A DNA stretch of 64,000 bases from Alphaproteobacteria bacterium (GTDB lineage Bacteria; Pseudomonadota; Alphaproteobacteria; JANQMY01). Where the stretch lies: the NCBI GenBank assembly GCA_028289425.1, contig JANQPL010000007.1:162611-226610 (forward strand), read 5' to 3'. The notes below the pieces were generated by a model. The model was given only the letters and a program-made list of their open reading frames with translations, searched no databases and was not told the DNA's origin. A program made the position numbers and the translations under genes. Shown in pieces: positions 33,440-51,226 of this stretch (position 1 is its first letter; each line of letters begins with the position of its first letter).

Positions 33440-33463
33440 TTATTGACGATAGATTGAATAGTG
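33440..33463 (+). promoter_or_regulatory. Operator-like element, family 2, site 1
   Basis: TTATTGACGATAG is followed by ATTGAATAGTG. It matches the block II consensus (TTATTGACGA, six bases, TATAATAA) with a degenerate right end. It lies 34 bp before the epoxide-hydrolase-like gene. Confidence 0.6.
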
Positions 33464-33496
33464 TAAGATCAACCGCCGGAAGATAGTGGAAGCGTC

Positions 33497-34378
33497 ATGG
33501 ATGACACTCATTTTGGGTTTGTCGAACGCGATGGCGTTCAATTGCACTATGCAGCGCGGGGACGCGGACCGCTGATCCTATGCCTTCACGGATTTCCGGA
33601 CTTTTGGCGCACGTGGCAGCCATTCATGGAGTCCTTCGCTGAGAGCCATACGGTCGTTGCACCCGATATGCGCGGTTACAATTTGTCGTCGAAACCCAAA
33701 AGTGTGGAGGCCTACCGGGAAGAAGAGACTGTCAAGGACATAGGTGCACTCGCATCACATTTCACCGACGAACCATTCGTTCTTGTCGGCCATGATTGGG
33801 GTGGTGCATCCGCGTGGAATTTCGCGATCAATCGACCGGAGCGGCTGTCGAACTTGATCGTTCTCAACGCACCGCACCCTGCCATCTTTCAGAACGCCAT
33901 TTGGCACGACACGGATCAGCGCGCCGCATCACAATATATTAGGCGGTTAAGGGAAGAAAACTCAGAACTCGTTCTTTTCGGCGAGGGCGAAAATGGCATG
34001 TGGTCCCGCTTTTTCGATCAGCGACACAGGGACGGCATGCTCTCGGATGCGGACAAGAAAGCTTATCTGGAAGCTTGGGGCCAACCCGGGGCCGCCCGCG
34101 CTATGGTCAATTGGTATCGCGCTGCTCCGTTTGACGTGCCCGAGATTGGCGCTCCGCCGAAGACGCCCAACTGGATGTCCGGGCGTGATTTTCATGTTTC
34201 GGTTCCGACGCTGGTGTGCTGGGGCGAGCAAGATGGTGTTCTCTTGCCTTGTTTACTGGACCCCCTGCCGAAGTTTGTTTCGGACCTAACAATCCGACGC
34301 TTTCCAAAAGCAGGCCACAACCCGCACCAAGACGACCAATCCGCTACCTTTGCAGAAGTTCGGCGGTTCATTCGTTGA
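33497..34378 (+). CDS. Alpha/beta hydrolase, epoxide hydrolase/haloalkane dehalogenase type
   Basis: A 293-residue alpha/beta hydrolase with an Asp nucleophile: Asp100 in 'VLVGHDWGGASAW', an oxyanion loop 'LHGFPDFW' (30-37), and the catalytic His in 'KAGHNPHQDD'. Asp nucleophiles of this kind open epoxides or displace halides. 'HGFPDFWRTW' and 'NAPHP' resemble epoxide hydrolases more than dehalogenases. ATG at 33497 follows GTGGAAG. It is the first gene of block II and stands alone before the next promoter element. The substrate is unknown. Confidence 0.82.
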   Translation: MDDTHFGFVERDGVQLHYAARGRGPLILCLHGFPDFWRTWQPFMESFAESHTVVAPDMRGYNLSSKPKSVEAYREEETVKDIGALASHFTDEPFVLVGHDWGGASAWNFAINRPERLSNLIVLNAPHPAIFQNAIWHDTDQRAASQYIRRLREENSELVLFGEGENGMWSRFFDQRHRDGMLSDADKKAYLEAWGQPGAARAMVNWYRAAPFDVPEIGAPPKTPNWMSGRDFHVSVPTLVCWGEQDGVLLPCLLDPLPKFVSDLTIRRFPKAGHNPHQDDQSATFAEVRRFIR

Positions 34379-34417
34379 CAAATCGAAGAGGAAAAAATTC
34401 AGCAAGGTTGCAATCCG

Positions 34418-34441
34418 TTATTGACTAGTCGTATAATAAGC
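34418..34441 (+). promoter_or_regulatory. Operator-like element, family 2, site 2
   Basis: TTATTGACTAGTC is followed by GTATAATAAGC. It lies 47 bp upstream of the VOC gene. TTGAC and TATAAT are only about seven bases apart, too close for a normal sigma-70 pair. Confidence 0.7.
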
Positions 34442-34487
34442 TTTCTTTGACCATGGTCTCAAGTGAGCAGGGGAGTCCCCGAATACG

Positions 34488-35432
34488 ATGATACGCGGCG
34501 TGCACCATGTTGGTTTGACAGTCGCCAACCTGCCCAAGATGGTGAGCTTCTATCGGCAAGCCGCTCAATTTTCGCCGTTGCCGCAGCACCCGTTTGCCGT
34601 TGAAACGCGCTTCTCGCGCATTGGCGAAGAGAACAGGCCGATTGAGAAGTCGCTTATGCTGCAAGCGCCAAACGGTTATTTAGAACTCATCCCTCTTGAT
34701 GGGGCCGCCGAACCATCCCGCCTGGACGTGAACCAGGCCGGCCTAAGACATATCTGTGTGCAGTCTGCGGAAGGCCCTGCGGTATACCAAAACTTTTCGG
34801 ATGCCGGCGCCCAGTTTCACTCGGAATTCGTGAGCTTGGGTACCGGATATCTGTACGCCTACGCCCGCGATCCTGAACAAAATGTTGTGGAGTTGGAAGG
34901 GGCGCCAAAAGGTCCAAATGAAGCTCCCCCATGGCTGGCCCATGTGGCCATCGTTACGCACGACATTGACCGATTGTCCGATTTCTACAGCGGGCTGCTA
35001 GGGCGGCGTGTACACAATCGTGGCCATTTTCATTCGAATGATCGCTTCGACAAGGTCACGGCACTTAAGAACGTTGATGTGAAAGCGGCCTGGATTCATA
35101 CGGAGAATTTGATCATAGAGATGTGGCAATACATCAATCCGCCCACAGAAGAGCAGCCTGTATCTCTATTTTCGACTGCCGGAATCAATCACATCAGTTT
35201 TGAAGTCGATGATATTGCGGCCGACAAACTGGCATTGCAGCAAAGCGGTTATGAGCTTTGCAGGGATGAAACCATCTGCAATGGGGGCAAGTCTGTCCTT
35301 GGTCGAGACGTCGATGGGAATCTGATTGAGCTTCTGGAGATCGACCAGTCGTATTCCGGGTTGAGCATAAATGCGCTGGACGACGTGTCCATCATTCCGC
35401 GCCTGGCCGGTGTTGAGGCAGGTGCTGCATGA
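34488..35432 (+). CDS. VOC-superfamily protein, two-domain (glyoxalase/extradiol dioxygenase-like)
   Basis: A 314-residue protein with two vicinal-oxygen-chelate modules (about 1-135 and 150-290). Metal-ligand candidates are His6 or His7 ('GVHHVGL') and Glu ('GYLELIPLD') in the first, and His ('LAHVAIVTHD', 'INHISFEVDD') and Glu ('NLIELLEI') in the second. Length and double-module layout fit type I extradiol dioxygenases or VOC isomerases. The reaction is not assignable by eye. Its stop codon overlaps the start of the next SDR gene by four bases (ATGA), so they are translationally coupled. Confidence 0.8.
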   Translation: MIRGVHHVGLTVANLPKMVSFYRQAAQFSPLPQHPFAVETRFSRIGEENRPIEKSLMLQAPNGYLELIPLDGAAEPSRLDVNQAGLRHICVQSAEGPAVYQNFSDAGAQFHSEFVSLGTGYLYAYARDPEQNVVELEGAPKGPNEAPPWLAHVAIVTHDIDRLSDFYSGLLGRRVHNRGHFHSNDRFDKVTALKNVDVKAAWIHTENLIIEMWQYINPPTEEQPVSLFSTAGINHISFEVDDIAADKLALQQSGYELCRDETICNGGKSVLGRDVDGNLIELLEIDQSYSGLSINALDDVSIIPRLAGVEAGAA

Positions 35433-36217
35433 GTGAAAACAGACCCGATCGAAGACTTTTCGGCAAGGCAGCAATCGTAACCGGCGCTGCGCAAGGCATC
35501 GGCCTGGCAATCGTGAAACGCTTCATCGATGAAGGAGCGGGCGTTGTCGCCTTCGACGTTCCCGGGTCGCCTCTCCACGATGCGGAACGGTACGCCGAGG
35601 AGGCGGGCGCACGTTGTGTCCTGTTCGAAGGCGATGTGGCCAATGAGGACGACTGGATCAAAGTTGTTGAGACGGCTCTTCGTTCCTTCGACAGAATAGA
35701 CGTGCTGGTAAACAATGCAGGTATTGGCGGGTCTGCAGGCGTTGCGCTGACCGACTATCCAACTGACGTGTTCGACCACGTGATGGCTGTGAATGTCCGC
35801 GGCGTGTTTCTCGGACTGAAGCACTGCGGCAAGGTGATGAAGCATCAAAGGTCGGGCGACATCGTCAACATCTCTTCCATTTCGGGGTTTGGCGGCAAGG
35901 GCCGCGTGTTCGCCTACACGGCCAGTAAGCACGCCGTCAATGGCATGACGAAAAATGCCGGCGCCGAGCTGGCGCGGTATGGCGTACGCGTCAACGCTGT
36001 GTGTCCCTCGCCGACGGACACGGAAATGATGGCGACGGCCGAGCGCATCGTATCGGACGACCCAGTGCAAGCCAGGGCCGCTTTTGTAAGCAATAATCCC
36101 ATGGGCCGATATGCCGATCCGGCCGAAGTCGCGTCGGTGGTGACATTTTTGGTGAGCGGCGATGCGTCTTTCGTCAACGCCGCATTGGTGCCCGTTGACG
36201 GCGGGTTGCTTGCCTGA
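35429..36217 (+). CDS. Short-chain dehydrogenase/reductase
   Basis: A 262-residue classical SDR. 'TGAAQGIGLAIV' binds the nucleotide, 'DVLVNNAGIGG' is the NNAG motif, and Ser in 'ISSISGFGG' with Tyr-x3-Lys in 'AYTASKHAVNG' is the active site; 'AFDVPG' (Asp after beta-2) suggests NAD. It overlaps the VOC gene by four bases and precedes another SDR by 41 bp, so the three form one operon. Confidence 0.88.
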   Translation: MSENRPDRRLFGKAAIVTGAAQGIGLAIVKRFIDEGAGVVAFDVPGSPLHDAERYAEEAGARCVLFEGDVANEDDWIKVVETALRSFDRIDVLVNNAGIGGSAGVALTDYPTDVFDHVMAVNVRGVFLGLKHCGKVMKHQRSGDIVNISSISGFGGKGRVFAYTASKHAVNGMTKNAGAELARYGVRVNAVCPSPTDTEMMATAERIVSDDPVQARAAFVSNNPMGRYADPAEVASVVTFLVSGDASFVNAALVPVDGGLLA

Positions 36218-36258
36218 GCGGGCTCGTTCACTTCTTCATTATACAGAGGGCATTGATC

Positions 36259-37026
36259 ATGGATCTCGGACTGTCGGGTAGGAAAGCGATTGTCACCGGT
36301 GGCAGCCGCGGCATCGGAAAAGCCATCCTGTTGGAGCTGGTCAGAGAGGGGGCCGTTGTCGCCACTTGCGCCCGTAACGAAGACACGCTTGTGGCAACCG
36401 CGTCAGAGGTTCAGAGTTTGGGCGGCACCATATTTACACAAGCGCTCGACGTGAGAGATCGATCGGCCCGTGATGAATGGCTCAGCGAGGCCGTACAGCA
36501 ATTAGGTGGCTTGGACATATTGATTAGTAATGTGTCGACGCGCGTTGACACGAAAAGCGAGACGTGGTGGCAGGACTCGTTCGACGTAGATCTCAATCAG
36601 CACGTCGAGACATGTAAACAGGTTTTGCCCGCACTGCAGGATAGCGGCGGAGGATCCGTTGTGTTCATTGCGTCCATCGCTTCGGTTCTGACGCAGCTTC
36701 CACCGGACGAGCTTGCCTACGGTTCCATGAAGGCCGCCTTGGTGAACTATAGCGGACAAATGGCTGTTCGATTAGCCAGCAAAGGGGTGCGCGTAAATTG
36801 TGTTTCGCCCGGCCCGATCCACTTCGAAGGTGGGTTCTGGGATCACGTCAAGAAGCAAGCGCCAGAGTTCTTTGAACTGGCGGGAAAAACTTCCGCCATG
36901 GGCCGGCACGGAACACCCGAAGAGGTGTCCAGGGCAGTGGCCTTTCTTGCCAGCCCGGCGGCGTCTTACATCACCGGGGCAAATCTGCGGATCGACGGTG
37001 CGGCCGTTAAGGCAGCCAATTTCTAA
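36259..37026 (+). CDS. Short-chain dehydrogenase/reductase
   Basis: A 255-residue SDR. 'TGGSRGIGKAILLEL' binds the nucleotide and 'CARNED' (Arg after beta-2) suggests NADP. The active site is Ser in 'IASIAS' and Tyr-x3-Lys in 'AYGSMKAAL'. ATG at 36259 follows AGAGGG; a TTG two codons earlier is less likely. With the preceding NAD-type SDR, it gives the operon one NAD- and one NADP-type enzyme, which would suit an epimerisation through a ketone (inference). Confidence 0.87.
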   Translation: MDLGLSGRKAIVTGGSRGIGKAILLELVREGAVVATCARNEDTLVATASEVQSLGGTIFTQALDVRDRSARDEWLSEAVQQLGGLDILISNVSTRVDTKSETWWQDSFDVDLNQHVETCKQVLPALQDSGGGSVVFIASIASVLTQLPPDELAYGSMKAALVNYSGQMAVRLASKGVRVNCVSPGPIHFEGGFWDHVKKQAPEFFELAGKTSAMGRHGTPEEVSRAVAFLASPAASYITGANLRIDGAAVKAANF

Positions 37027-37192: not shown

Positions 37193-38779
37193 TTGACCAC
37201 CCAGAACAGGATATTGTCCTTTCCCACGAAACTAGCTTTCGGTGTGGGCGCGATTGGCGAGATTGTCTATCTCGGCATGTTCAACACCTTCATCGGAATT
37301 TTTTACAATCAGGCGATCGGGCTTTCCAATTCCCTCATCGGCACCGCGATTATGTTGGCCCTCATTGGGGATGCCATATCCGATCCGCTGGTGGGCATGA
37401 TTTCGGATCGCTGGCGGTCTTCACAAGGGCGGCGCCATCCATTTTTGTACGTCGCTCCGTTGCCTGTTGCGATCGCGCTCTATTGCATCTTTAGCCCGCC
37501 GGGCGCGCTCACATCTACGGACACAATATCGACTGACAGTGGCCAGTTTTATCTGTTCCTCTGGCTAACGTTTTGGACCATTCTCAGCCGCCTGTTTCTG
37601 ACGCTTTATTCCGTGCCGCATCTCGCGCTCGGCGGCGAATTGACGAATGAGCCTACCCAACGCTCTCAGCTATTCAGTGTAAACGCCGTTTGCGGTTACG
37701 CGACAGGCGCATTGTTCGCTTTTCTTGCATGGGGCTACTTTCTGGGTGGGGAAAGTCTGAATGCGGACGGCGTTACGATCCCCCGGCATTTGGATCCAAC
37801 CGCCTACGGCGCGTTGGTCTTCACGGCCTGCGGATCTGTCCTTTTTGCCATTTGGCTGTGTGCCTGGGGCACACGAGATCAAATCCCGCATCTAAGCGAT
37901 CCGCCTGTCGATTCGAGATCCCTCTCGATCAACTTGTTCTATCAAGATATTTTCGGGGCGATGAAGAACCCCAACTATGCCTTTCTGCTGGTCGGGTTTT
38001 TCTTTTTCATGATCTCTGTGGGCCTCAATGAAACATTCGGTGTTTTTGTCAACACCTACTTCTGGGAATTGGGTACGGAGCAAATGCGGTGGTTTGGATT
38101 GGCTGCCGTGCCGGCGATTCTCCTGGGCGCGGTTTCGGCGCCCATCCTGATGCGCCGTTTTGACCGGAAACCCGTTTTGATCTGTGCGCTCTTGGCCATG
38201 ACCATCTTTGCGCAGCTCGCGATTTGGTTGCGAATAGTGGGATTGTTTCCGGCGAATGACTCTCCTTTTTTATTGCCGTTGCTGATCAGCTTCGCCTGCG
38301 GCTTGTCGTTGGCTCTTGCCGTTACCTCGGTTGCCGTCTTGTCCATGTTGGGCGATATCGCGGATGAAAACGAACTTGCGACCGGCAAACGGCAAGAGGG
38401 ACTCGTTTATTCGGCCCGAGCCTTCTTCGCAAAGGCGTCAGGGTCATTCGGCCATTTCCTGGCTGGTATCATTCTCGATCTCTTCGTACGCCTGCCATTC
38501 GAGGCTGTGCCGGGTCAAGTCGACGCGGATGTCATTCTGCGGCTGGGCCTTGCGGCGGGGCCGATCATGGGTGCCGGCGCATTCATCTCTATATTCTTCT
38601 ATGCACGCTACAACATCACGTCGGAACGGCACTCAAGAATATTGGCGGAATTGGCGGAACGGCGGTCTGCCGTTCCGGTGGGACAAGTGCAGTTTGCAGC
38701 GTCGGCGGCACCTTCGTCGGGAGGTGTCCTCGCCGCTCAAAAGCCTGGCGACGCCGCGGAGACGAAGCCCGCACCATAG
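37193..38779 (+). CDS. Major facilitator transporter, GPH (glycoside-pentoside-hexuronide) type
   Basis: A 528-residue membrane protein with about 12 hydrophobic segments. The signature 'GDAISDPLVGMISDRWRSSQGRRHPF' is the GPH-family motif between helices 2 and 3, and 'TLYSVPHLALGGELT' is the conserved helix 5 region. A hydrophilic C-terminal tail of about 45 residues is Ala/Pro-rich. GPH members import sugars and glycosides with cations; in catabolic clusters relatives also carry other polar organics. The start appears to be TTG at 37193, since no in-frame ATG lies nearby upstream. It is in one unit with the following reductase, under family 2 control. Confidence 0.85.
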   Translation: MTTQNRILSFPTKLAFGVGAIGEIVYLGMFNTFIGIFYNQAIGLSNSLIGTAIMLALIGDAISDPLVGMISDRWRSSQGRRHPFLYVAPLPVAIALYCIFSPPGALTSTDTISTDSGQFYLFLWLTFWTILSRLFLTLYSVPHLALGGELTNEPTQRSQLFSVNAVCGYATGALFAFLAWGYFLGGESLNADGVTIPRHLDPTAYGALVFTACGSVLFAIWLCAWGTRDQIPHLSDPPVDSRSLSINLFYQDIFGAMKNPNYAFLLVGFFFFMISVGLNETFGVFVNTYFWELGTEQMRWFGLAAVPAILLGAVSAPILMRRFDRKPVLICALLAMTIFAQLAIWLRIVGLFPANDSPFLLPLLISFACGLSLALAVTSVAVLSMLGDIADENELATGKRQEGLVYSARAFFAKASGSFGHFLAGIILDLFVRLPFEAVPGQVDADVILRLGLAAGPIMGAGAFISIFFYARYNITSERHSRILAELAERRSAVPVGQVQFAASAAPSSGGVLAAQKPGDAAETKPAP

Positions 38780-38864
38780 ACAGGCTGAAGTTAGCCGCAA
38801 CGATGTGAGGTGCAAAGGGCCCCGTCTGCATTTTACGAACCTATCGTCAGTAGAGGTCACTCTC

Positions 38865-39860
38865 ATGAAAAACACCTTGGTGAGACTCGCAAAACGTCCC
38901 GAAGCCGAGATCGAAGAGGACACTTTTGAGATTGAACAAACTGCCGCGCGTTTGCCGGATGACGGCGAAATTCAAGTGGCCATCGAGTACATATCGATCG
39001 ACCCGACAATGCGGACTTGGGTCGCCGACATCGAAAGTTATGTACCGCCCGTCGCCGTTGGAGATGTCATGCGCGCCGGTGCCGTGGGCGACGTCACCGG
39101 TTCCCGTCATCCGGAATTTAAAGTGGGTGACAAGGTGCATGGCATGTTTGGCGTCCAGTCCATTTATACCGGGCCGGCCGAACGGGTGACCATGCTGGAT
39201 ACGCATGTTGCTCCGGCCCAAGACTACCTTGGTGGTCTGGGCGGCACGGGCCTTGCCGCCTATTTCGGTATTTTGAAAGTTGGCGCGCTTGCGCAAGGTG
39301 AAACCGTTGTCGTGTCGGCGGCGGCGGGTGCCGTGGGGCACCTGGTCGTTCAAATCGGAAAGCTGAAAGGCGCCCGCGTCGTGGGTATTGCAGGCGGCAC
39401 CGAGAAATGCCGGCGGGTGGTCGAGGTTTTCGGAGCCGATGCCTGTATTGACTACAAATCTGAAGACCTGTCCGAAAAACTGAAACAGTTTTGCCCGGAC
39501 GGCGTCGATGTTTATTTCGACAATGTCGGTGGTAAGACCCTCGAAACACTGATCGACCATTTGGCGATGCGCGCGCGCATCGTCATCAGCGGTGCCATTT
39601 CAAAATACAATGAACTCGATTCTGTTCGAGGGCCGCGCAACTATCTCAATTTGATCGGTAAGGGCGCGCGCATGGAAGGGCTCTTGAACATGCACTGGGT
39701 GGCGGAATTCGATGAGGCACGACAGGAGCTTGCAACTTGGGCGCATGAGGGCCGCATCAAATTCCATAACCAGATCGAACACGGCCTTGAGAACTTTCCC
39801 ACTACCTTGGGCATGTTGTTTTCCGGTCAGAACGTCGGAAAGCTTCTACTGAAGGTGTAA
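38865..39860 (+). CDS. NADP-dependent zinc-free MDR reductase (CurA/LTB4-dehydrogenase-like)
   Basis: A 331-residue medium-chain reductase lacking zinc-ligand cysteines. 'ISIDPTMRTWVADIESYVPPV' is the family's substrate loop, 'GGLGGTGLAAYFGILKVG' precedes the Rossmann motif 'VVVSAAAGAVGHLVVQIGKLKGARVVGIAGG', and 'YFDNVGG' follows. Members (CurA, leukotriene B4 dehydrogenase, prostaglandin reductase) reduce the C=C of enones with NADPH. ATG at 38865 has AGAGG upstream; a much longer in-frame extension overlaps the transporter in another frame and is not real. The start lies 85 bp after the transporter stop. Confidence 0.88.
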   Translation: MKNTLVRLAKRPEAEIEEDTFEIEQTAARLPDDGEIQVAIEYISIDPTMRTWVADIESYVPPVAVGDVMRAGAVGDVTGSRHPEFKVGDKVHGMFGVQSIYTGPAERVTMLDTHVAPAQDYLGGLGGTGLAAYFGILKVGALAQGETVVVSAAAGAVGHLVVQIGKLKGARVVGIAGGTEKCRRVVEVFGADACIDYKSEDLSEKLKQFCPDGVDVYFDNVGGKTLETLIDHLAMRARIVISGAISKYNELDSVRGPRNYLNLIGKGARMEGLLNMHWVAEFDEARQELATWAHEGRIKFHNQIEHGLENFPTTLGMLFSGQNVGKLLLKV

Positions 39861-40080: not shown

Positions 40081-42390
40081 TCAGAGCTGTGCGCGCAGGG
40101 TCAGCGACCAGGTGATTGGATCGCCGATGAACTGTGCGTTGGTTGCATTGCCATCCAATACGCCATAGGACGACCCGAAGATGAAGTGCTCATAGTCCTT
40201 GTCCAGAGCGTTCTCGACGGCGAAGATCACGCCGTAGCGCTGATCTGGGCTGTCGATACCCACCCGCAGGTTGAGCAGACCGTAGGAATCGACCACGGCG
40301 AAATCATCTTGTCCCAAAGTTGTGTTCTTCGACGATTGCCACGCCCATTCCCCTTGCAAGAAACCGGTGAAGTTGGTGTTCAAGATCGGCTTTTGATAGT
40401 TGCCGATCAGCGAATAGAAGTAGCGCGGCGAGTCGCGGAATCGTGAGCCCTCAAGCGCCACATTGTCGGAAAACTCGACGATGTCCACTTCGTTCCAAGT
40501 GAAACCACCCGTTATCGTCAGGCCGTCAATAAAGTTGGGCGCAAAGACAAGATCGGCTTCAATGCCCATCGTGTTCAGCTTGTCGATCGACAGGTTGAGA
40601 ACGTTGCCAAGTGAGTCCGACGTGATCGTCTGCAGGTCACGCACATTCTGATGGAAGAACGTCACGTTGGTCGATACCTGACCTTCGAACAACTGAGACC
40701 GGAAGCCTGCTTCAATCAATGTGGGGACTTCAGGCGCAAGCACCGGTAATCCGCCAGGTGTCGTGATTGCCGCGACGTTGACGCTTTCGGCGACATCAAT
40801 ACCGGGCCCCTTGTAGCCGCGAGACCACGACGCATAGGTCATGAGATCGTCGGTCCAGAAGTAGCGCCCGATGAAGCGTCCTGACAGGTTGTCGTCTTCG
40901 ACCTTCTGGAAGCCGGTGACGTCGGGTCCAAAGTTGCTGCCCGAAAAAGGCAACAGCGGATTAATGGGCGTTCCGACACGATTGTACCAGGCCTCGATTT
41001 CTTCGTGTGTGAACCGGCCGCCAAGAATTAAAGATAGCTTGTCGGTGATGTCGATCGTCGTTTCGGTGAAAACGGCGAAGCTGTCGTTTTCAACCGCACG
41101 GTCCGCGTTTGTTCTGGAGTTCAAGTTCCCCAGCCCCGGAATAGCAAAGGGAAGGGCCAGCTCAACATCCACCTGGCCTTGGGCGTCAAGATCCTGATGA
41201 AAATAGTAGAGGCCCGCCACATAGCTCACCCGGTCCAAAAAACTGCCGTCTAAGCGCAATTCTTGACTGAATTGTTTTGTTGATGAGACCGTGCCGTTGC
41301 GGTTATTGGCATTTGAGTTCGAAACGCCGTCGGCTTCGTTGAATTCATTGATTTCCCAAGCCCGGTAACTGGTGATCGACTTGAGCGTCGCAGCACCAAA
41401 GTCATACTCAACATCAAGGGCCGCACCGCCAGCCTGCGAGTCTTGGAGAATATTTTCGTCCAGGACGGCGACCGACCGGTTTCTTGGCCCAGGAACAATA
41501 CCGACCGCCGACAGAGCGTCCCCAATCTGAAGAACCCCTGAATTGAGGGCAAAGCCAACCGCCAAGTTAGGGGGCCCAGCATTTCTGAATGTTGGCTGAC
41601 AACATCTATTGTCTTCCTCGACAAAGTCGCCGGTAAATTTTACGGTCAGGTCAGCCGTAGGCTGATAAAGAATCTTGCCGCGCAGGGAATAGGTCGATTT
41701 GTCATTCAGATCGTCCTCACCCGGCAGCACGTTATCAAGAACGCCGTCGCGACGGTTAAACGTGCCGCTTAGCCGTGCCGCAAGTTTGTTGCCGACCAGT
41801 GGACCCGTCACGCTGCCGCGAATTTTAAATTCATTATAGCGGCCGTAGGAAATATCGCCCCCGGCCCCGAATTCAAACTCCGGATCTTTGGTGCGGATGT
41901 TGATTACGCCGGCGGACGCGTTCTTCCCGAAAAGCGTCCCCTGCGGACCTTTAATGATCTCGATGGTTTCGACATCGAAGAAATCGAAGAATCCTTGCGC
42001 TTCACGGCCCAAAACCACGCCGTCGATGACGGTCGCCACACTCGATTCAAAGCCATCGCTGAAACTGAAGGTCGAAATGCCACGAATCTTTGACCCCGTC
42101 GCGCGGGACGTATTGATCGGCGTCAGGTCGAAGCCGGGGACAAACCGGACAAGATCGTTGACCGTGTTGAACCCGGTCACCTCTAAAAACTCGTCTGATA
42201 TTACCGTCACGGCAACGGGCGTTTCGAAGAGCGATTCCTCGCGTTTTCGTGCCGTCACGATGATGTTGTCCATTATTGATGCCGCGGCATCCGATTGCGC
42301 GACAGCCGGCGTTTCCATCGTGCAGGCGATCGCTACCGCCGCCAGGGAAATAGCGGCTTTTTTAAAGTCTAACGGAACCCGTATTTGCAT
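40081..42390 (-). CDS. TonB-dependent receptor 2 (block II)
   Basis: A 769-residue outer-membrane receptor. A signal peptide ('MQIRVPLDFKKAAISLAAVA' onward to 'AVAQS') precedes the TonB-box region 'MDNIIVTARKREE', the plug with 'VETIEIIKGPQGTLFGKNASAG' and 'VINIRTKDPE', and the barrel ending 'PITWSLTLRAQL'. ATG at 42390 is chosen because GGGGGA precedes it; an alternative at 42405 would add five residues. Two family 2 elements lie 92 and 120 bp upstream, the only tandem pair. The substrate is unknown, but it is presumably the compound handled by block II. Confidence 0.92.
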   Translation of the reverse strand: MQIRVPLDFKKAAISLAAVAIACTMETPAVAQSDAAASIMDNIIVTARKREESLFETPVAVTVISDEFLEVTGFNTVNDLVRFVPGFDLTPINTSRATGSKIRGISTFSFSDGFESSVATVIDGVVLGREAQGFFDFFDVETIEIIKGPQGTLFGKNASAGVINIRTKDPEFEFGAGGDISYGRYNEFKIRGSVTGPLVGNKLAARLSGTFNRRDGVLDNVLPGEDDLNDKSTYSLRGKILYQPTADLTVKFTGDFVEEDNRCCQPTFRNAGPPNLAVGFALNSGVLQIGDALSAVGIVPGPRNRSVAVLDENILQDSQAGGAALDVEYDFGAATLKSITSYRAWEINEFNEADGVSNSNANNRNGTVSSTKQFSQELRLDGSFLDRVSYVAGLYYFHQDLDAQGQVDVELALPFAIPGLGNLNSRTNADRAVENDSFAVFTETTIDITDKLSLILGGRFTHEEIEAWYNRVGTPINPLLPFSGSNFGPDVTGFQKVEDDNLSGRFIGRYFWTDDLMTYASWSRGYKGPGIDVAESVNVAAITTPGGLPVLAPEVPTLIEAGFRSQLFEGQVSTNVTFFHQNVRDLQTITSDSLGNVLNLSIDKLNTMGIEADLVFAPNFIDGLTITGGFTWNEVDIVEFSDNVALEGSRFRDSPRYFYSLIGNYQKPILNTNFTGFLQGEWAWQSSKNTTLGQDDFAVVDSYGLLNLRVGIDSPDQRYGVIFAVENALDKDYEHFIFGSSYGVLDGNATNAQFIGDPITWSLTLRAQL

Positions 42391-42481
42391 TGGTGTTTCC
42401 CCCATCTCCAGCAACCAGCTCGTTTTTCGCGCGTTCACCTTCTGGCTCTTTTGACGCGCGCTCGCTCCCATATGAGGCACA

Positions 42482-43632: not shown

Positions 43633-45087
43633 CTACTTGGCACCGGACGCGCCACGAGGCAGATAATGCATTTCGAGACCGACGGCCTGACGCCGCTTGA
43701 ATCCCTTCCAGTAGTTTTCCGATCCATTTGTACCGTCGGCATACTGATCGCCATAGTACTGACCCATCGGCTGCGCCCATGTTCCGTCATTCGACAAGGT
43801 TGTTGGTACCTCGAGATATGCCCGTCGGGATTCATCACCTTTGAGGTGCAGGTCTAAGAATGCCGTGATGAAATGCTGGTTGACGGAAAGCAGCCGGTCT
43901 TTTTTCCAGATGGGATCTTCAAACTGCTCCCATACAGATACATCAAGAAATGCCGCTTCCGGTGCAGGCACCTGAACAAGATTGTGTTGGGCATTCTGAA
44001 ATACCAACATATGCCGATCGGTATTGCGTGCATTGTCGAAAATTCTGCGGACGCCGTTCTCGAAGCCGACAACATCGTCCTGGCTTCCAACGATAAAGAG
44101 AAGGGGCGATGGAATGTCGGCAAAAGCCTCATTCTTCCAGGCTTTTACGTCGTCCTGCGCGCCCCAAGGGGAAATGGCTATAACAGCGCCAATCAAGTCC
44201 AGATTTCTCTCTTTGAACGCTTCGTTTTCACTCGACAGGTCTTCAAAATAGCGCCGTCCGGCCCATCCAAAGATTTCCGCATCGATATGGTATCCGGCGC
44301 CGGCGTGATTGAGAGCCCCATATCCCCCAAACGAAAATCCGATCAGCCCTGCCTTAGAGTCACTGATCAGATTTGCCCAGGGGGCGCCACCGTCGTTCGC
44401 TGCACCTCTCAATGAGTCCACAACAAACTGCTGATCAATGGAACGGAACAACATGGCGCGCGCGAAAATTTTCAGGGGCGCAAGTTCATCTGCTTTCACG
44501 TAATCACCATGGTCAATCGCGGCGACAACATATCCTTTGCTCGCCAGATTTTCCGTAAGGCCGGCGACCGCGGCGGGCGCACTTCCAAGTCCATGCGAAA
44601 AGATGACCAGCGGGAACTGTTCCGCGGCGACAGGAGAGGCGTCGCGCACGGCAATCCCCTGAACCGTGAAGTGGTCGGGTAGTCCAGGAATCGGCCGCTG
44701 CTCTGACTGGTAAAATTTCCCTTCATAAAAGGCCCGTTCGGCATCTGGTTCGATTACCGCGGGATAGAAGACGTCGACCTGTATCGTTCGATCATAGGTT
44801 GGCGCCGTGCGCGTGATCAGGCTGTAACTGGCGATATCGATCTGACCGGGATTGACAAGTTCAACGGTAGCGACCCCTACATCGTAAGGCCCAAATGACG
44901 CAAGCTCCGGCGCCTCGTCGCCGGGCAGGGCAGCCGTTGTGAGACTAGCCAATGTGATTGGCGCGGATACTTCTGCAGGCTCCACGGGCCCATCGCAGCC
45001 GGCCAATCCCGATACGATGAGTGCCATCGCAAAACCCCTCAACATGCCGCTCCGCTCGCTTTTCCGATACCTCAAACATCCCCGCAT
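43633..45087 (-). CDS. Lipoprotein alpha/beta hydrolase (PAF-acetylhydrolase / dienelactone-hydrolase-like)
   Basis: A 484-residue secreted hydrolase. The N-terminus has a basic stretch, then 'LRGFAMALIVSGLAGC', a lipobox with the lipidated Cys, so it is anchored in a membrane facing the periplasm. The nucleophile elbow is 'GFSFGGYG' (Ser) and a catalytic His fits 'QNAQHNLV'; 'VIFSHGLGSAPA' is the oxyanion loop. The domain arrangement resembles platelet-activating-factor acetylhydrolase, so an ester or lactone is the likely substrate. ATG at 45087 follows AAGG. It starts eight bases after the stop of the Coq4-like gene, so the two are one operon. A periplasmic esterase could release the molecule that the cytoplasmic enzymes use. 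Confidence 0.82.
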   Translation of the reverse strand: MRGCLRYRKSERSGMLRGFAMALIVSGLAGCDGPVEPAEVSAPITLASLTTAALPGDEAPELASFGPYDVGVATVELVNPGQIDIASYSLITRTAPTYDRTIQVDVFYPAVIEPDAERAFYEGKFYQSEQRPIPGLPDHFTVQGIAVRDASPVAAEQFPLVIFSHGLGSAPAAVAGLTENLASKGYVVAAIDHGDYVKADELAPLKIFARAMLFRSIDQQFVVDSLRGAANDGGAPWANLISDSKAGLIGFSFGGYGALNHAGAGYHIDAEIFGWAGRRYFEDLSSENEAFKERNLDLIGAVIAISPWGAQDDVKAWKNEAFADIPSPLLFIVGSQDDVVGFENGVRRIFDNARNTDRHMLVFQNAQHNLVQVPAPEAAFLDVSVWEQFEDPIWKKDRLLSVNQHFITAFLDLHLKGDESRRAYLEVPTTLSNDGTWAQPMGQYYGDQYADGTNGSENYWKGFKRRQAVGLEMHYLPRGASGAK

Positions 45088-45094
45088 GGTGACC

Positions 45095-45805
45095 TTACAT
45101 CTGACTCCCAGGGTGCTCCACGCATCTTGGATATAATCCGTATTCCTTCTGAATGTCCTTGAGAGGGCGATCGAGTTGGTCTTCGAAACGGACCAGTTGG
45201 ATGTTTTTCGCGGACTTCCCGAAAGACCAGCCATCGGTGATCGCGTTCATGGCCGGGTTGATCAGATCCGGGTTCAACAAGGTCATATGGCTGGTAACCA
45301 CGGCAATCCACATTCCTGCGTAAGGAAAATTGTTCTGCGCAAATCCGAAGGCTTGCAAAGAAATTTCACCGACCGGGTCCGGCCGGTAGCCGGTCAAGAC
45401 GTGGTGAATGTCGTGGGTTTGATATCCGCGCAGGATTTTGTATTGCAGCACGTGGGGCATGCCATCCAGTTTTCCTGTCTGCTGCATTTCCTCATGAAGC
45501 GTGCGATATCCGGCAGCCAGCTGTTCTTCCAATCCATTGTCTTCGATGAAGTGAAGATACGCTTCACCAAGTGAGCCAGATGCGCAGGCGCGTAGACGGT
45601 CCATATCGACCGGCTCTGCCAACCACCCTTCGGCCGCCAGGGGACCCTGTTCCGGGTGGCTTTCAATCGCCGCGACATATTTTTCGATCACCTCGCGCGG
45701 TGCTTCTTCCCACCAATCATTGAAGAGCAGATGCACACCGTAAGCGTCATAGTCATCGATGGAGGTGAGAAATCTTTCACCGAACGCTCTATCAACCCCA
45801 ACCAT
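45095..45805 (-). CDS. Coq4-like protein
   Basis: A 236-residue protein with the Coq4 zinc/metal motif HDxxHx11E: His131-Asp132, His135 and Glu147 in 'HDIHHVLTGYRPDPVGE'. Coq4 acts in ubiquinone synthesis, recently linked to oxidative decarboxylation of the ring. Here it is not with ubi genes but in an operon with a periplasmic hydrolase under a family 2 element, so a catabolic role on an aromatic or quinone-like molecule is more likely. ATG at 45805 follows GGGAG; a longer start would lie upstream of, and translate through, the family 2 element. Family call is firm; function in this context is inferred. Confidence 0.8.
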   Translation of the reverse strand: MVGVDRAFGERFLTSIDDYDAYGVHLLFNDWWEEAPREVIEKYVAAIESHPEQGPLAAEGWLAEPVDMDRLRACASGSLGEAYLHFIEDNGLEEQLAAGYRTLHEEMQQTGKLDGMPHVLQYKILRGYQTHDIHHVLTGYRPDPVGEISLQAFGFAQNNFPYAGMWIAVVTSHMTLLNPDLINPAMNAITDGWSFGKSAKNIQLVRFEDQLDRPLKDIQKEYGLYPRCVEHPGSQM

Positions 45806-45936: not shown

Positions 45937-46902
45937 TCACCACGCGTATGCCTCCGGTGCTTCTCCGCACTGTGGGAATATGGCGTCAAGTCGCTCTAGT
46001 GTCTGATCGTTCAGCCGAATTTCCGGCACATGGAGGACGGATCCGAGTTGCTCGACATTTCCGGGCCCGATGATCGTGGCGGAAATGCCTGGCCGATGTA
46101 ACAACCAAGACAACGCGACCGCACTTGGTATTTCTTCCAACTCGGCGCATAGCTCAAAAAACCGGCGGAGCTGTCCGGCATGTTCTGTCCGCGCATTTTC
46201 TATGCTCGCCGCCTTTCGGCGGCTTTGGGTGCGGTCGTTTTCGCCCGCTAATAACCCGCCGGCCAACGGACTCCACGGAATGAGCCCCACACCATAGGCG
46301 CGACACGCGGGCAAAACCTCCATCTCGATGCGGCGCTCAACCAGATTGTAGAGGCTCTGCTCGGAAATCAGTCCCAAGCGGCCGCGTGACATGGCACGTT
46401 CGTTCGCGCGGGCAATCGCCCAGCCCGGAAAATTGCTCGATCCCACATAGGTGATCTTGCCCTGCGCGATCAGCCGCTCCATCGCCTGCCAGGTTTCTTC
46501 CACCGGGGCCAGCCTGTCGAAGTGGTGCATTTGATAGAGATCGATATGGTCGATCCCAAGACGCTTTAGGCTTGCCTCACACGCCATTTGAATATGGCGC
46601 GCAGACAGGCCCCGATCATTGATGTCGTCAGACATTGGTTCATAAACTTTGGTCGCGATGACGAGATTGTCGCGCCGCGCTTTGTTCTCGGAAAGCCATT
46701 TCCCAACGATGCGTTCAGTCGTCCCGACCCCCAGATCGCCGCCATATTGGTTGGCCGTATCAATGAAATTGATGCCGGCATCGACCGCCGTGTTGAGAAT
46801 TTCCAAGGACTCCGCTTCATTTGCCCGCGGTCCAAAATTCATGGTGCCGAGGCAAAGCGTGCTGACTTTGAGGGCGGAGGATCCAAGTTGGCGGTACTGC
46901 AT
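45937..46902 (-). CDS. Aldo/keto reductase
   Basis: A 321-residue NADPH-dependent TIM-barrel reductase. 'QLGSSALKVSTLCLGTMNFG' is the family N-terminus. The tetrad is Asp and Tyr in 'FIDTANQYGG', Lys in 'VIATKVY', and His in 'DLYQMHHFD'. 'GLIPWSPLAGGLL' and 'LSWLLHRPGISATIIGPGNVEQL' form the cofactor site. ATG at 46902 is used; a TTG at 46914 is an alternative, and neither has a good Shine-Dalgarno, as is common with tight coupling. It begins 18 bp after the phytanoyl-CoA-dioxygenase-like gene, so the two are cotranscribed. Confidence 0.87.
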   Translation of the reverse strand: MQYRQLGSSALKVSTLCLGTMNFGPRANEAESLEILNTAVDAGINFIDTANQYGGDLGVGTTERIVGKWLSENKARRDNLVIATKVYEPMSDDINDRGLSARHIQMACEASLKRLGIDHIDLYQMHHFDRLAPVEETWQAMERLIAQGKITYVGSSNFPGWAIARANERAMSRGRLGLISEQSLYNLVERRIEMEVLPACRAYGVGLIPWSPLAGGLLAGENDRTQSRRKAASIENARTEHAGQLRRFFELCAELEEIPSAVALSWLLHRPGISATIIGPGNVEQLGSVLHVPEIRLNDQTLERLDAIFPQCGEAPEAYAW

Positions 46903-46920
46903 GACGGGCTGCAAGTAAGT

Positions 46921-47886
46921 TTACGGCGCCCGCAAAGTGACGCCGGTTTCCAAGACTTCGCTTGAATCGGCGACACAGTATCGGGCAATTTTCTGCGCGC
47001 GTTCCGGGAGCTTTTTGTAATCGTCGTAAGCGATTCCTTTGACGATGGGCTCCCGAAACCAAGGGGCGTAAAACTCAAGATTTGGGATGGCGCGGACAGC
47101 ATCGGACACATTCGGCGTGCCGCCGTGCCACGCGCGGGTATCGCGGATCATGATGCCGCCCGCAGGAACCGGACATACTGTGCTCAAGCGCATCCATTCG
47201 GGCTCCTCTTTGAGCGACGGCACCGGAGCACGTGAATATTGTGTGCCAGGGATTTGGCGGGTGGGGCCGTTGAGCCGTGTGATCTCTTGCGGAAGGAAGT
47301 TCACGCAAATGTACGGACAAGGCAGATCGGTGACATTCAAGCGCCCGCCCGGATCGTAAAAGGAACTGAAAGGCGATCCTTTTGTGTCCGTCCAATTCCG
47401 AACATCCGCATGCAGACGTTGGTACTGCATGGCGCCGGGCAGACAGAAATCGCCGCTGGCGGCCCTCAACACGAAATCCTCAGAGCCGAACATAGCCGCA
47501 ACCAGATCGGTGACGGTCGAATGACTCAGAAGCATCTGCCATTCGGGACGATGCAGTTGGCTTCGGGTCAAGCTCGATCCGCCAAAAGAATAACGGCCGG
47601 TGCCGCGATTGCCGGTGCGATCCTCGTCGAGAGCGAGGATCTCCGAAATAACCTCGCGGCAGCCGGCGGCCAGAAAGTCGATCTGTTCTTCGTTGAGGAT
47701 GTCCCTGATCACGACGAACCCATCCCGCCGGAACAGCCTGACCGCGTTGTCCACATCGTCAGCCTTCAGGATTTCCAAGCCCTTGATTCCATTGCTCCGG
47801 TCAAGATACGTGCGCAATTGCTGAAACGATGTCGCGTCGGCCGAACTCGACATGTTTCCAGCTTTGGCGTCGAGTAGTGCCATCAT
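46921..47886 (-). CDS. Phytanoyl-CoA dioxygenase family protein (Fe(II)/2-oxoglutarate oxygenase)
   Basis: A 321-residue member of the PhyH family. The iron ligands are His and Asp in 'QRLHADVRNWTD' and the distal His in 'DTRAWHGGTPNVS', with an Arg downstream for 2-oxoglutarate. It hydroxylates an aliphatic or other unactivated C-H with O2 and 2-oxoglutarate. The N-terminal 'DAVRLFRRDGFVVIRDILNEEQI' is typical. ATG at 47886 has GAGGT upstream. A family 2 element lies 62 bp upstream, and an aldo/keto reductase follows. It may oxidise a side chain on the block II substrate; the actual target is unknown. Confidence 0.85.
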   Translation of the reverse strand: MMALLDAKAGNMSSSADATSFQQLRTYLDRSNGIKGLEILKADDVDNAVRLFRRDGFVVIRDILNEEQIDFLAAGCREVISEILALDEDRTGNRGTGRYSFGGSSLTRSQLHRPEWQMLLSHSTVTDLVAAMFGSEDFVLRAASGDFCLPGAMQYQRLHADVRNWTDTKGSPFSSFYDPGGRLNVTDLPCPYICVNFLPQEITRLNGPTRQIPGTQYSRAPVPSLKEEPEWMRLSTVCPVPAGGIMIRDTRAWHGGTPNVSDAVRAIPNLEFYAPWFREPIVKGIAYDDYKKLPERAQKIARYCVADSSEVLETGVTLRAP

Positions 47887-47947
47887 TTTACCTCATCAGG
47901 CGAGTAGGCCATGGAGCCCGTTCGACCAGCGCAAGAAAACGGTCAAA

Positions 47948-47971
47948 GATAATTATACTATTCGTCAATAA
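47948..47971 (-). promoter_or_regulatory. Operator-like element, family 2, site 7
   Basis: On the minus strand it reads TTATTGACGAATA then GTATAATTATC. It lies 62 bp before the phytanoyl-CoA-dioxygenase-like gene. Confidence 0.72.
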
Positions 47972-48144
47972 TAGTCGGCCCATGCAACAAGTCAAACTGC
48001 CCAACCAACAAATCGAACGGCTTGGTAAATTTCGAAATGGATCACACGGTTGCACGGGACCTCCGAGAACAGACAGGGTTATTTCGGTCTGCGCGGCGCG
48101 CTACGTCGCCGTACGCTTCGTTCCAAGTGCAAAACAAACGGCCA

Positions 48145-49374
48145 TTAGCCGAAATGCAAGCGTCTGTATTTTCCGCCGAAGTAGAGAAGCGGATCGCGGC
48201 GCGGGTCAAATCTCGCACGCACCACCTCACCAATGAGAATGATGTGATCTCCTTGATCTACTTCATTTCTCCGCAAACACTCGTAACTCGCCAGAGAATT
48301 GGAAATTATCGGGACGTTGTAGTCCCAAGTTTCCCAGATCGTTGTAGCGAATCTGTCTTGCCCCTTGCTGGCAAACAGATTTGACAATGGTTGTTGCCCC
48401 ATATGCAGAATGTTTACCGCAAACGCAGGCTCTTTCTGGAAGGCAGGTAAGCTGCCGACAGACTTCCCCAAGCAGATCAACACCAAGGGCGGGTCTAGCG
48501 AAACCGACGAGAATGAGTTTGCGGTGAGACCAACCGGTTGCCCCCTAGGATCTTTTGTGGTGACCACCGTAATTCCGGTTGCGAAACACCCCATGGCGTC
48601 CCTGAGAGTGCGCTGGTCGGATCCCGATGTGAATTCAGGGGGGTCGCGCGGCACATTGTGTTCCAAAAACTCCAACAACTTGGCGTTAAATTCATCTGCG
48701 CGTTCGAACGCAACATAGTGTCCGCCACCCTCGATTTCGACAATTTCGACGTGAGGGATATGGGCCGCCAGAGCGCTTGTCGATTGCGCAGAACTCAACG
48801 CATTATCGCCACCCCTCACGATCAAGGCTGGAATTTTGAGCCGCTTAGCGGCCTGCGTCATCCGATATTCGAGATCTTTGAAATCAAACCCGCCGGTGAA
48901 GAGTGCTTCGTCGAATCCACCTTTGCGGCGGTTCTCTGAAACTTGGCGGTTGACTTCTTTATCCAATGCACGCGCGCTCAGTCCACTCACATCCTCGAGC
49001 GGATTTGTGAGAACGAGCCCGGTCGCCAAAGGGCTCTGTGCTTCGCCCAGCGCCGTTAATGCAATCCAGCCGCCAAATGTCGATCCGATGATTGCCGGGC
49101 GGGACGAAAGTTGAGCTAGAATGGCAACCAAGTCGGCGACAAAGGCTTCAAGTTGGTAGTTGCCATCGGCTGGACGCTCGCTATCCCCATGCCCTCGAAA
49201 GTCAACACAGACCGCATAACGCCCTGCCTTTGCCAATGCTTTGGCCGCATCGTGCCATGCCTGGCGCGGTTGCGTGGCGCCGGGCAACAGTAACACACAG
49301 GGGTGTTCTTCTTGCCCGAACGTGTCGGCAACGAGCTTCACCCCTCCAAAACCGGTGAACTCTCGGACTGGCAT
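48145..49374 (-). CDS. Alpha/beta hydrolase fused to a flavin reductase-like FMN-binding domain
   Basis: A 409-residue fusion. Residues 1-240 are an alpha/beta hydrolase: 'VLLLPGATQPRQAW', 'VCVDFRGHGDSERP', acid Asp190 in 'IVRGGDNALS' and His219 in 'EGGGHYVAFE'. The nucleophile elbow reads 'IIGSTFGGW', putting Thr99 where Ser, Cys or Asp normally stands. Residues about 255-409 are a flavin reductase-like domain ('MGCFATGITVVTT', 'GLTANSFSSVSLDPPLVLICL'), which usually supplies reduced FMN to a monooxygenase. The combination is unusual. ATG at 49374 is chosen since conservation begins after it. It follows the amidohydrolase gene (197-bp gap) on the same strand. Confidence 0.82.
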   Translation of the reverse strand: MPVREFTGFGGVKLVADTFGQEEHPCVLLLPGATQPRQAWHDAAKALAKAGRYAVCVDFRGHGDSERPADGNYQLEAFVADLVAILAQLSSRPAIIGSTFGGWIALTALGEAQSPLATGLVLTNPLEDVSGLSARALDKEVNRQVSENRRKGGFDEALFTGGFDFKDLEYRMTQAAKRLKIPALIVRGGDNALSSAQSTSALAAHIPHVEIVEIEGGGHYVAFERADEFNAKLLEFLEHNVPRDPPEFTSGSDQRTLRDAMGCFATGITVVTTKDPRGQPVGLTANSFSSVSLDPPLVLICLGKSVGSLPAFQKEPAFAVNILHMGQQPLSNLFASKGQDRFATTIWETWDYNVPIISNSLASYECLRRNEVDQGDHIILIGEVVRARFDPRRDPLLYFGGKYRRLHFG

Positions 49375-49494
49375 ATGACGGGCCTCCCGCGATCTGTTCG
49401 TCCTTATGAGGCGTCGTACTGACCTGAAGCCGAAAGGCAATCCCACAAGCAGCCCAGTTGGGTGCAAACTCTCGCGACCCAAGAATATCTAGGC

Positions 49495-49519
49495 TGGCGG
49501 GCCTTTTAGTGGTCCGCCA
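49495..49519. terminator. Hairpin between amidohydrolase and fusion gene (weak)
   Basis: TGGCGGGCC (49495-49503) and GGTCCGCCA (49511-49519) pair with one G-U. No T-run follows on the minus strand, so it may only attenuate or protect the transcript. Confidence 0.4.
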
Positions 49520-49571
49520 CTGCTATGGATTACCCAATCCAAAGGCCACTGCCGCTGGCAAGAACATACGC

Positions 49572-50753
49572 TTACTGAAGACCTAGGTAGTCCTCGAAAT
49601 TCTTGCTGTAGAAGTGATCGAGCTCTTCGGGCGTCGCATCGACCGCGTCCAAGCTGCGCTCGAAATCGCCAAACGGGTCGGAACCACCCTCAGGGTGCGG
49701 ATAGTCCGTATTGAACATCAGAATGTCTTTTCCAACGTTTCGCAGCACCCATCCGGCATCTTCCATGTGGAATGGCGTCACACGCACTTGCCGCTGAACA
49801 TATTCCGACGGTTTGAGGGAGAGTTTCTTTAGCGCAATGTCGCGCTTGCCGAGCTCCCGGACGCCCATGTCCAGATTGTACAAACACGCAGGTAGCCAGT
49901 TCGAACCCAATTCAATCAAACCGATTTTGAGATTTGGGAAGCGTTCCAGGACACCGTCATAGATCATGCAGGTTAGCCAGCGTTCGATCGAATGATGCAG
50001 GACGGGTACGTCTTTTGCTCTGGTGGTCTCGATGTTCGTCAGGCTGGGCTCCAACAAGCGCTCCGTCCCGATGTTCATGTACTCGTCGGGCATATTCACG
50101 CCCGACCCGATATGAAGTGTGACCGGAATTTTTGCCTCTTGCATGATCGCCCAAATCGGATCGTAGTCGAGGTGCGATGGGGAACGCCCCCTAACAGCGT
50201 CCGAATGGATCCAGACTGTCTTAATTCCCATGTCGATTGCTTGCTTTAGCGAAGACTGAGCTTTTTCGGGGTCCTTTAAAGAAACATATCCGACGGGCAG
50301 GAGCCTTTGGTCGCTCGAGCAAAAGTCGGCCATGCCCCGATTGAGAGCCTCGCTTCCGCCGTAAACGACGTCTAAGTCTTTGGATCTCGCAAACCGGGCC
50401 ATCGCAATGCTCGGGAACACAAGCTGATGGTTGATCCCCGCAAGATCGAGTGACTTGCTGCGTTCGTTCTTGTCGATGGCGCCATAGGCCGTCCATTGCT
50501 TGTATTTTTCCTTGTGGCCGAACATGTTTTTCTCAAGCTCTGCCGTTGTCTCCGGATCATTTCCGTCCAAGCGATTCCGAGCGCGTTCGTAAACGGCCTG
50601 CAGCTCGGGCATATCCAAAGGGATCAAACCGGGTTCCAAATTGGCCTTGACGTAGTCGCTCGCAAAACTCTCAAGCCAGCCCGGATATTCTATGAGGTGG
50701 CTGTCAGCGTCGTGAATAATCCGTCCATTTTGGTGGCTACTTGCTGTCGACAT
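49572..50753 (-). CDS. Amidohydrolase family 2 protein (ACMSD/LigI-like metal hydrolase)
   Basis: A 393-residue TIM-barrel metal hydrolase. The N-terminal metal motif is Asp17-x-His19 in 'HDADSHLIEYP'; 'VTLHIGSG' provides the barrel His; 'VLHHSIERW' follows; the C-terminal Asp is in 'LMFNTDYPHPEGG'. Relatives decarboxylate or hydrolyse aromatic ring-cleavage products. ATG at 50753 follows GGGAGA. A family 2 element lies 41 bp upstream. It is the last gene of block II. Confidence 0.85.
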   Translation of the reverse strand: MSTASSHQNGRIIHDADSHLIEYPGWLESFASDYVKANLEPGLIPLDMPELQAVYERARNRLDGNDPETTAELEKNMFGHKEKYKQWTAYGAIDKNERSKSLDLAGINHQLVFPSIAMARFARSKDLDVVYGGSEALNRGMADFCSSDQRLLPVGYVSLKDPEKAQSSLKQAIDMGIKTVWIHSDAVRGRSPSHLDYDPIWAIMQEAKIPVTLHIGSGVNMPDEYMNIGTERLLEPSLTNIETTRAKDVPVLHHSIERWLTCMIYDGVLERFPNLKIGLIELGSNWLPACLYNLDMGVRELGKRDIALKKLSLKPSEYVQRQVRVTPFHMEDAGWVLRNVGKDILMFNTDYPHPEGGSDPFGDFERSLDAVDATPEELDHFYSKNFEDYLGLQ

Positions 50754-51226
50754 GTGCGTCTCCCATCAAATTCGGTCTCTGGTCCGAACATCCTTAATGA
50801 CGGTTTATATAATACGGAATTGCCCGCTTGTCCACAGCAGGCATTTGGGATGCGTTTTCGCCTTGCTGGCCCTGCGAGGCCCACACCCGTGCTGTTTGTT
50901 GACGATCTTCTTGAGGTCACCGCGCATCCGCACGGCAGCCATGCGGTCCACCCAATCAAGGCCAACCGAAAGACCATAGACATTTCGACTTCTACCCGAG
51001 CGCCGCCATTGAGTTCCGGAGGTGTGGGCAGAGGGGAGCGAACTCGTCGCCGCGCCTTATAGGGCGGATCTCAATCACAATTCCCTGTTGGCCCGCGGAG
51101 AACATTGCCGCACCGATTCACCAAGGCACGTTCCCAAAAATCTATCTGAATCGATCGCTCCCCTAGGATGAGGTTGCGAATATCCATTGACCTAGATGGC
51201 AGCGTCGCTCATTATCCAATTGGATA
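50754..51226. other. Boundary region between blocks II and III
   Basis: This 473-bp divergent gap has a family 2 element at its left end (50794) and a family 3 palindrome touching the right-hand start codon (51211). Open frames inside it resemble no known protein. Confidence 0.6.
50794..50817 (+). promoter_or_regulatory. Operator-like element, family 2, site 8
   Basis: TTAATGACGGTTT is followed by ATATAATACGG. It lies 41 bp before the amidohydrolase start and is the last family 2 copy found. Confidence 0.68.

Follow-up and report, generated by a model that had tools for sequence, protein, structure and literature searches.

A 22-bp polar element before the genes of an alphaproteobacterial cluster: a predicted operator of the cluster's TetR-family regulator

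Introduction

The closest described systems to the one reported here come from three bacterial groups. In Thermus thermophilus, the TetR-family protein SbtR has the operator TGACYRNNYRGTCA, with TGAC-N6-GTCA as the measured site (PMC4948773). In Mycobacterium tuberculosis, the operator of the TetR-like repressor Mce3R is asymmetric, with sites of about 25 bp each, because the protein is a double TetR chain (PMC11667970). PheR of Sphingobium, a member of the IclR family with a GC-rich, 44-bp operator, locally represses a cluster for uptake and catabolism, and the substrate relieves this repression (PMC13273656). Here, we analyzed a 64,000-nt stretch of an alphaproteobacterial genome (contig JANQPL010000007.1, positions 162,611 to 226,610; hereafter, the window), in which a 22-bp element is repeated before the genes of one cluster, and we propose that it is read by the TetR-family regulator encoded in that cluster at 42767-43456.

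The new system shares features with each of these. As described for SbtR, the predicted reader would be a TetR-family homodimer, and the TGAC-N6-GTCA geometry recurs in the TGAC half-site of the element and in dyads found in actinobacteria; however, the SbtR operator is a symmetric 14-mer, whereas the element spans 22 bp, has AT-rich ends, and carries TATA in place of GTCA (a comparison at the level of the sites). Mce3R is a TetR-like repressor with an asymmetric operator, as is predicted here, but it is a fused double TetR, whereas the window protein, of 229 amino acids (aa), consists of one unit. The similarity to PheR is in the logic only, as the protein family and the site both differ. In literature searches on the element motif, the gene set, and sphingomonad TetR operators, none of the matches listed described the element or the cluster in the title or the opening of the abstract, nor was a study of this TetR subfamily found among the matches listed.

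Results

The element and its nine copies

The element is a polar pseudo-palindrome of the approximate form TTATTGAC-N6-TATAATAA. The initial annotation had placed it at eight positions, and each of these indeed contains it (plus-strand starts 33440, 34418, 37095, 42484, 42512, 45843, 47950, and 50794). The spacing proposed there, TTATTGACGA followed by six bases and TATAATAA, had to be corrected: it found no match in the window even at three mismatches, and two in the whole genome at three mismatches, none inside the block. A ninth copy, at 43574-43595 on the minus strand, was found with a matrix built from six strong copies, and because it lies in the gap upstream of the TetR gene, the claim that every transcription unit except the TetR gene has a copy was wrong. 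The nine copies are listed with their scores in a relatives-only matrix, which was generated from 40 distinct sites of other genomes, excluding those of the window; these sites had first been located using the window's own matrix.

33440..33461, plus strand: copy 1 (weak), 35 bp upstream of the alpha/beta-hydrolase gene (start 33497); 22.8 bits
34418..34439, plus strand: copy 2, 48 bp upstream of the VOC gene (start 34488), overlapping a promoter-like TTGCAA-18-TATAAT; 28.1 bits
37095..37116, plus strand: copy 3 (strongest), 76 bp upstream of the GPH symporter gene (start 37193); 34.0 bits
42484..42505, minus strand: copy 4 (weak), tandem partner at the tentative start of the TonB receptor gene, 28 bp from copy 5; 22.3 bits
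42512..42533, minus strand: copy 5, before the TonB receptor gene; 29.3 bits
43574..43595, minus strand: copy 6, upstream of the TetR gene, 54 bp to the TTG at 43519 and 117 bp to the ATG at 43456; 22.6 bits
45843..45864, plus strand: copy 7, 22 bp before the minus-strand Coq4-like gene and pointing away from it; 31.9 bits
47950..47971, minus strand: copy 8, 63 bp before the PhyH gene, its edge overlapping a promoter-like TTGACT-16-TATTAT; 30.0 bits
50794..50815, plus strand: copy 9, 40 bp before the minus-strand amidohydrolase gene and pointing away from it; 26.2 bits

With this matrix, the nine copies ranked first in the window, at 22.3-34.0 bits, and the weakest three were those at 33440, 42484, and 43574. 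The next best window score was 12.7, and the top score in 60 Markov-shuffled windows was 17.9 bits. Exact TTATTGAC was observed seven times in the window against 1.34 expected, with six of these within elements and one outside, at 40525; exact TATAATAA was observed four times against 0.37 expected, three of them within elements. The element is real, beyond chance. In the motif search over the genome (5.42 Mb, 20 contigs) suggested in the initial annotation, all five matches with at most one mismatch fall in the block, as do eight of the 15 found at up to three mismatches, a level at which the reversed control pattern gave eight matches. An Rfam search of 33000-51300 returned no structured RNA match at the gathering score.

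Co-occurrence of the element and the TetR gene in other genomes

A protein search with the window TetR returned 84 proteins, itself included, and forty were aligned and used to retrieve 44 loci from named genomes. Nineteen of these (L021-L039) contain TetR relatives with 38-58% identity, and 25 (L040-L064), with weak TetR matches mostly confined to the DNA-binding part, were used as controls. A refined matrix, which took in sites from the 19 loci, detected 50 sites of at least 13 bits in 14 of the 19 (297 kb), whereas the 25 control loci (439 kb) had no site of even 11 bits. When the sequences of the window and the loci were read backwards, one site above 13 bits was found. In the window and loci jointly, matches of at least 13 bits numbered 56 in the first pass with the window matrix alone and 59 finally. 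The five loci lacking a site were L024, L031, and L032, which are short contigs or contigs starting just before the gene, along with L036 and L037. Eleven of 14 whole genomes examined, the window's included, had matches at two mismatches, most on the contig of the TetR cluster and some elsewhere. In G001, the only other genome of the genus searched, there was neither a TetR match at 1e-10 nor an element at two mismatches.

A second assay started from the pattern, in 397 genomes of the family of G097, a sample that includes G097 and G105, both known beforehand to hold element and TetR. The element (at one mismatch) was present in 13 genomes, the TetR (E <=1e-40) in 27, and both in 8 (Fisher p 1.6e-7), and in these eight genomes all 16 sites lie 77-10,199 bp from the TetR. 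Upon omission of G097 and G105, the TetR was found in 6 of 11 element genomes versus 25 of 395 overall. The five element genomes without the TetR carry one match each, and these single matches are at background, because the reversed control gave 11 matches in 10 genomes. When 20 TetR loci were read with 1.5 kb on each side, eight had a site of at least 16 bits, and two more had one about 3 kb away. Sites also stand before the window's own TetR gene and near the TetR gene in several relatives. The element has the distribution of an operator: copies near the regulator gene and before the targets, kept with the regulator across genomes.

The TetR protein

The window protein has a TetR_N domain (PF00440, E 4.1e-13, 49.3 bits against a cut-off of 24), which places it in the TetR family. 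Its AlphaFold2 model is all-helical, with eight helices of at least four residues and a mean pLDDT of 88.9, and in Foldseek it matched TetR-family structures, in keeping with an all-helical fold with a C-terminal ligand domain. The top matches were 3f1b, a TetR-like protein of Rhodococcus (TM 0.62), and the FasR-DNA complex 6o6p (TM 0.62), both by query length; these proteins share the fold but are only 17-22% identical to the window TetR and control another regulon. In fatty-acid synthesis, FasR acts as an activator. The best match by sequence among solved structures was Mce3R, over the helix-turn-helix region only (residues 13-76, E 2.5e-7). A double TetR of the Mce3R type was ruled out by the one TetR_N match in the 250-aa frame and the single unit in the model.

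Symmetry of the site

In 50 distinct copies, the sequence information is confined to 22 bp. In their outer five bases, the two arms mirror each other with matched preferences (YWATT and AATWR), so that the TTATT/AATAA pairing, already noted as imperfect in the initial annotation, holds as a true outer dyad when the sites are pooled; the inner three bases differ constantly, with GAC on the left and TAT on the right. In a set of 73 copies, exact TATAAT was found in 43, and in 14 the first of the differing positions is a C, which restores one dyad base. A second cluster beside the main Sphingorhabdus cluster (L132, G097:C2:162001-182000; 6758-14168) contains a TetR paralogue (39% identity) together with separate element copies, in several of which the right arm reads CAATAA or CAATAG.

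Eighteen actinobacterial control loci encode a TetR with the helix string SKPLVYAYF. In 17 of the 18, a symmetric 22-bp dyad, TWATTKAC-N6-GTMAATWA, with the half-site ATTKAC, was detected within 2 kb (at least 13 of 16 fixed positions), against none of the seven control loci without the string; the pattern was framed only after inspecting those loci. The dyad lies about 100 bp before the TetR match in seven loci, about 1.7 kb before it in eight, and about 600 bp after the TetR start in two. In the AT-rich control loci L041 and L042, 6 and 8 of 40 shuffles reached the threshold. L043, one of the seven, has the helix one residue off (SKPLVYVYL) and no dyad. Near the SKPLVYAYF TetRs of L044-L063 (Nocardia, Smaragdicoccus, Hoyosella, and Amycolatopsis), overlapping pairs of 22-bp dyads were observed, with starts 15 bp apart and a common half-site, which are possibly bound by two dimers side by side.

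Position, orientation, and promoter signals

For the six enzyme and symporter genes preceded by an element, the distance from the element end to the gene start ranges from 22 bp (Coq4-like gene) to 76 bp (symporter gene); the starts of the TonB receptor and TetR genes are tentative. A tandem similar to that of copies 4 and 5, at 27-28 bp, also precedes the TonB receptor gene in L021-L023 and L131. The element occurs in both orientations relative to the gene, as originally noted, but with a bias, since seven of the nine window sites face their gene and two face away. In the non-redundant loci, window included and near-duplicates L021, L023, L030, and L039 left out, 20 sites have the same direction as the gene and five the opposite, 13 lie between divergent genes, and one has none (binomial p 0.004, with sites that are not independent). 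Six further loci gave 11, 3, 13, and 1, respectively, with two of the L132 sites repeating L023 sites. Some divergent gaps (L021 and L127) contain one site per gene, each facing its gene.

The flank profiles of the 50 and 73 distinct sites, generated after removal of duplicate sequences, were flat, with no -35/-10 signal at a fixed distance. No sigma-70 pair (TTGACA/TATAAT, 16-18 bp apart) thus holds a fixed place relative to the element, and a fixed sigma-70 promoter inside or beside it was rejected as a general rule. An earlier promoter scoring, in which eight of nine window sites exceeded 95% of the background, was set aside, as the background was unmatched for base composition and the rows of the minus-strand genes were one base off. 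Four of the best five promoter-like matches in the block overlap an element: TTGCAA-18-TATAAT at 34418 on the strand of the gene, an opposite-strand match at 34418, a third match at the edge of the 47950 copy, and a fourth that overlaps the 37095 copy by two bases.

Genes of the block and possible substrate

Gene families were assigned with Pfam, and for ten proteins NCBIfam was used in addition. The Pfam assignments are as follows.

33497..34378, plus strand: alpha/beta-hydrolase
34488..35432, plus strand: two-domain VOC (glyoxalase/dioxygenase superfamily) protein
35429..36217, plus strand: short-chain dehydrogenase (SDR) 1
36253..37026, plus strand: SDR 2
37193..38779, plus strand: GPH-type symporter (MFS_2), under the NCBIfam cut-off
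38832..39860, plus strand: NADPH ene-reductase-like dehydrogenase (ADH_N_2), the nearest NCBIfam family being curcumin reductase, under cut-off
40081..42480, minus strand: TonB-dependent receptor, start tentative
42767..43456, minus strand: TetR-family regulator (229 aa) predicted to read the element (from TetR_N in Pfam, fold model, and co-occurrence with the element)
43633..45234, minus strand: PAF-acetylhydrolase/PETase-like esterase or lipase
45095..45805, minus strand: Coq4-like protein
45937..46914, minus strand: aldo/keto reductase
46921..47886, minus strand: PhyH (phytanoyl-CoA dioxygenase family) protein
48145..49482, minus strand: alpha/beta-hydrolase fused to a flavin reductase domain, without an element of its own
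49572..50753, minus strand: amidohydrolase (Amidohydro_2)

The fused hydrolase-flavin reductase gene is likely co-transcribed with the upstream amidohydrolase gene. Homologues of the fusion with 63-64% identity and similar length were found in L021-L023 and L131. Varying subsets of this gene set recur with the TetR and the element in other genomes, including the TonB receptor, symporter, PhyH, aldo/keto reductase, Coq4-like, amidohydrolase, esterase, VOC, and SDR genes. A GH42 beta-galactosidase gene is preceded by an element in both L026 and L027, and in L027 an element also precedes an SDR gene followed by a GH36 alpha-galactosidase gene. In L129 (1874-5678), an element precedes a sodium:solute symporter gene followed by galT and galK, with an aldose epimerase gene nearby, and galactose use may be part of the same regulon there. 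Because galactosidase and galactose genes sit behind elements in some relatives, our guess is that the inducer could be a galactose-bearing, perhaps ester-containing compound that would enter through the TonB receptor and the GPH symporter. A literature search for a galactolipid substrate found no paper.

To the right of the block, 51227-54916 contains genes for an aldose epimerase, an FGGY kinase, and a xylose-isomerase-like protein, and copy 9 (50794) points there from about 410 bp away. Elsewhere in the genome, a site at C7:126342-126363 (locus L014, 1501-1522) scores 22.0 bits, about the level of the weakest copies in the block. On either side of it are two divergent reading frames whose products, judged by eye, resemble citrate synthase. 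The site may be a tenth target or an unrelated dyad.

Discussion

We consider it likely that the element is the operator of the TetR encoded at 42767-43456, because nine sites near gene starts co-occur with relatives of this protein and with much of the same gene set. Genome comparison makes the link between site and protein a strong one, and from there we infer binding, repression, autoregulation, and a ligand. A TetR homodimer would read the TTATT/AATAA arms; of the two half-sites, ATTGAC would be the better, and the one with TATAAT the weaker. Once bound, it would cover the promoters of the transcription units of the cluster and thus repress them, its own gene included through the upstream copy, until a compound of the pathway binds the protein and releases it from the operators. 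Repression by promoter covering is favored because the sites are close to the start codons and four of the five best promoter-like matches overlap elements.

Several observations weigh against this proposal. L036 and L037 are full-length TetR-relative loci and have no site, 19 of the 27 TetR genomes lack the element at one mismatch, and 10 of the 20 TetR loci lack a good site in the stretch read; these genomes and loci may hold paralogues with other operators. The imperfect dyad, with its constant GAC versus TAT difference, is unexpected for a homodimer. The element has no promoter box at a fixed distance; among the four promoter overlaps, one lies on the strand opposite to its gene and another covers only two bases, and promoter-like sites are unenriched in the block overall (12 versus 9.5 expected). 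Lastly, FasR is among the top structural matches.

This last point, along with the directional placement of the element (20 same versus 5 opposite in the non-redundant loci), would fit a TetR that, once bound to the element, activates transcription or has a dual role, in the manner of FasR. We regard this as unlikely, since the elements end 22-48 bp before four of the window genes; the nearest are too close to the starts to accommodate both a complete upstream activator site and a promoter, leaving little room for a whole downstream promoter, and no promoter boxes are conserved at a fixed distance.

The TetR genomes without the element and the TetR loci without a good nearby site would also be expected if another regulator, encoded elsewhere, read the element and the TetR gene were a mere passenger. 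This appears more improbable still: the TetR is the sole regulator among the block proteins scanned with Pfam, the element and the TetR stay together even though the enzyme sets differ, and the half-site recurs near actinobacterial TetRs with a nearly identical recognition helix.

That the element itself serves as a promoter of a non-standard type, such as one used by an alternative sigma factor, is hardly credible, for although it contains TTGAC and TATAAT, precedes genes, and mostly faces them, the distance between these boxes is unfit for sigma-70, two of the nine window copies face away from their gene, the outer arms form a dyad, and the element co-occurs with the TetR gene. Of the two options offered in the initial annotation, an operator or a non-standard promoter, genome comparison supports the former, specifically with this TetR, and the lack of fixed -35/-10 boxes and the tracking of the TetR gene speak against the latter.

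Under the operator reading, the polar TATAAT half is only partly explained, because no promoter box stands at a fixed distance. A speculative model, which we put forward tentatively and do not favor, is that a single-unit TetR homodimer uses an operator of fixed asymmetry, with ATTGAC as the good half-site and the other arm rebuilt into a gene-facing TATAAT box, so that operator and promoter would be partly fused; the symmetric form would survive near actinobacterial TetRs that share the recognition helix and, to some extent, in the paralogous clusters of alphaproteobacteria. If so, several alphaproteobacterial families would have conserved a polar repressor site.

If the operator assignment is true, the cluster would represent a new regulon of a familiar type, under local, autoregulated TetR control. 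The TetR subfamily would gain a 22-bp site and a regulon, both predicted, along with a catabolic gene set that recurs among genomes, and the element could be used as a tag to gather the genes of the pathway across genomes, and hence to find its substrate. The fixed asymmetry of the site would also offer a testable question, namely how TetR dimers read imperfect dyads.

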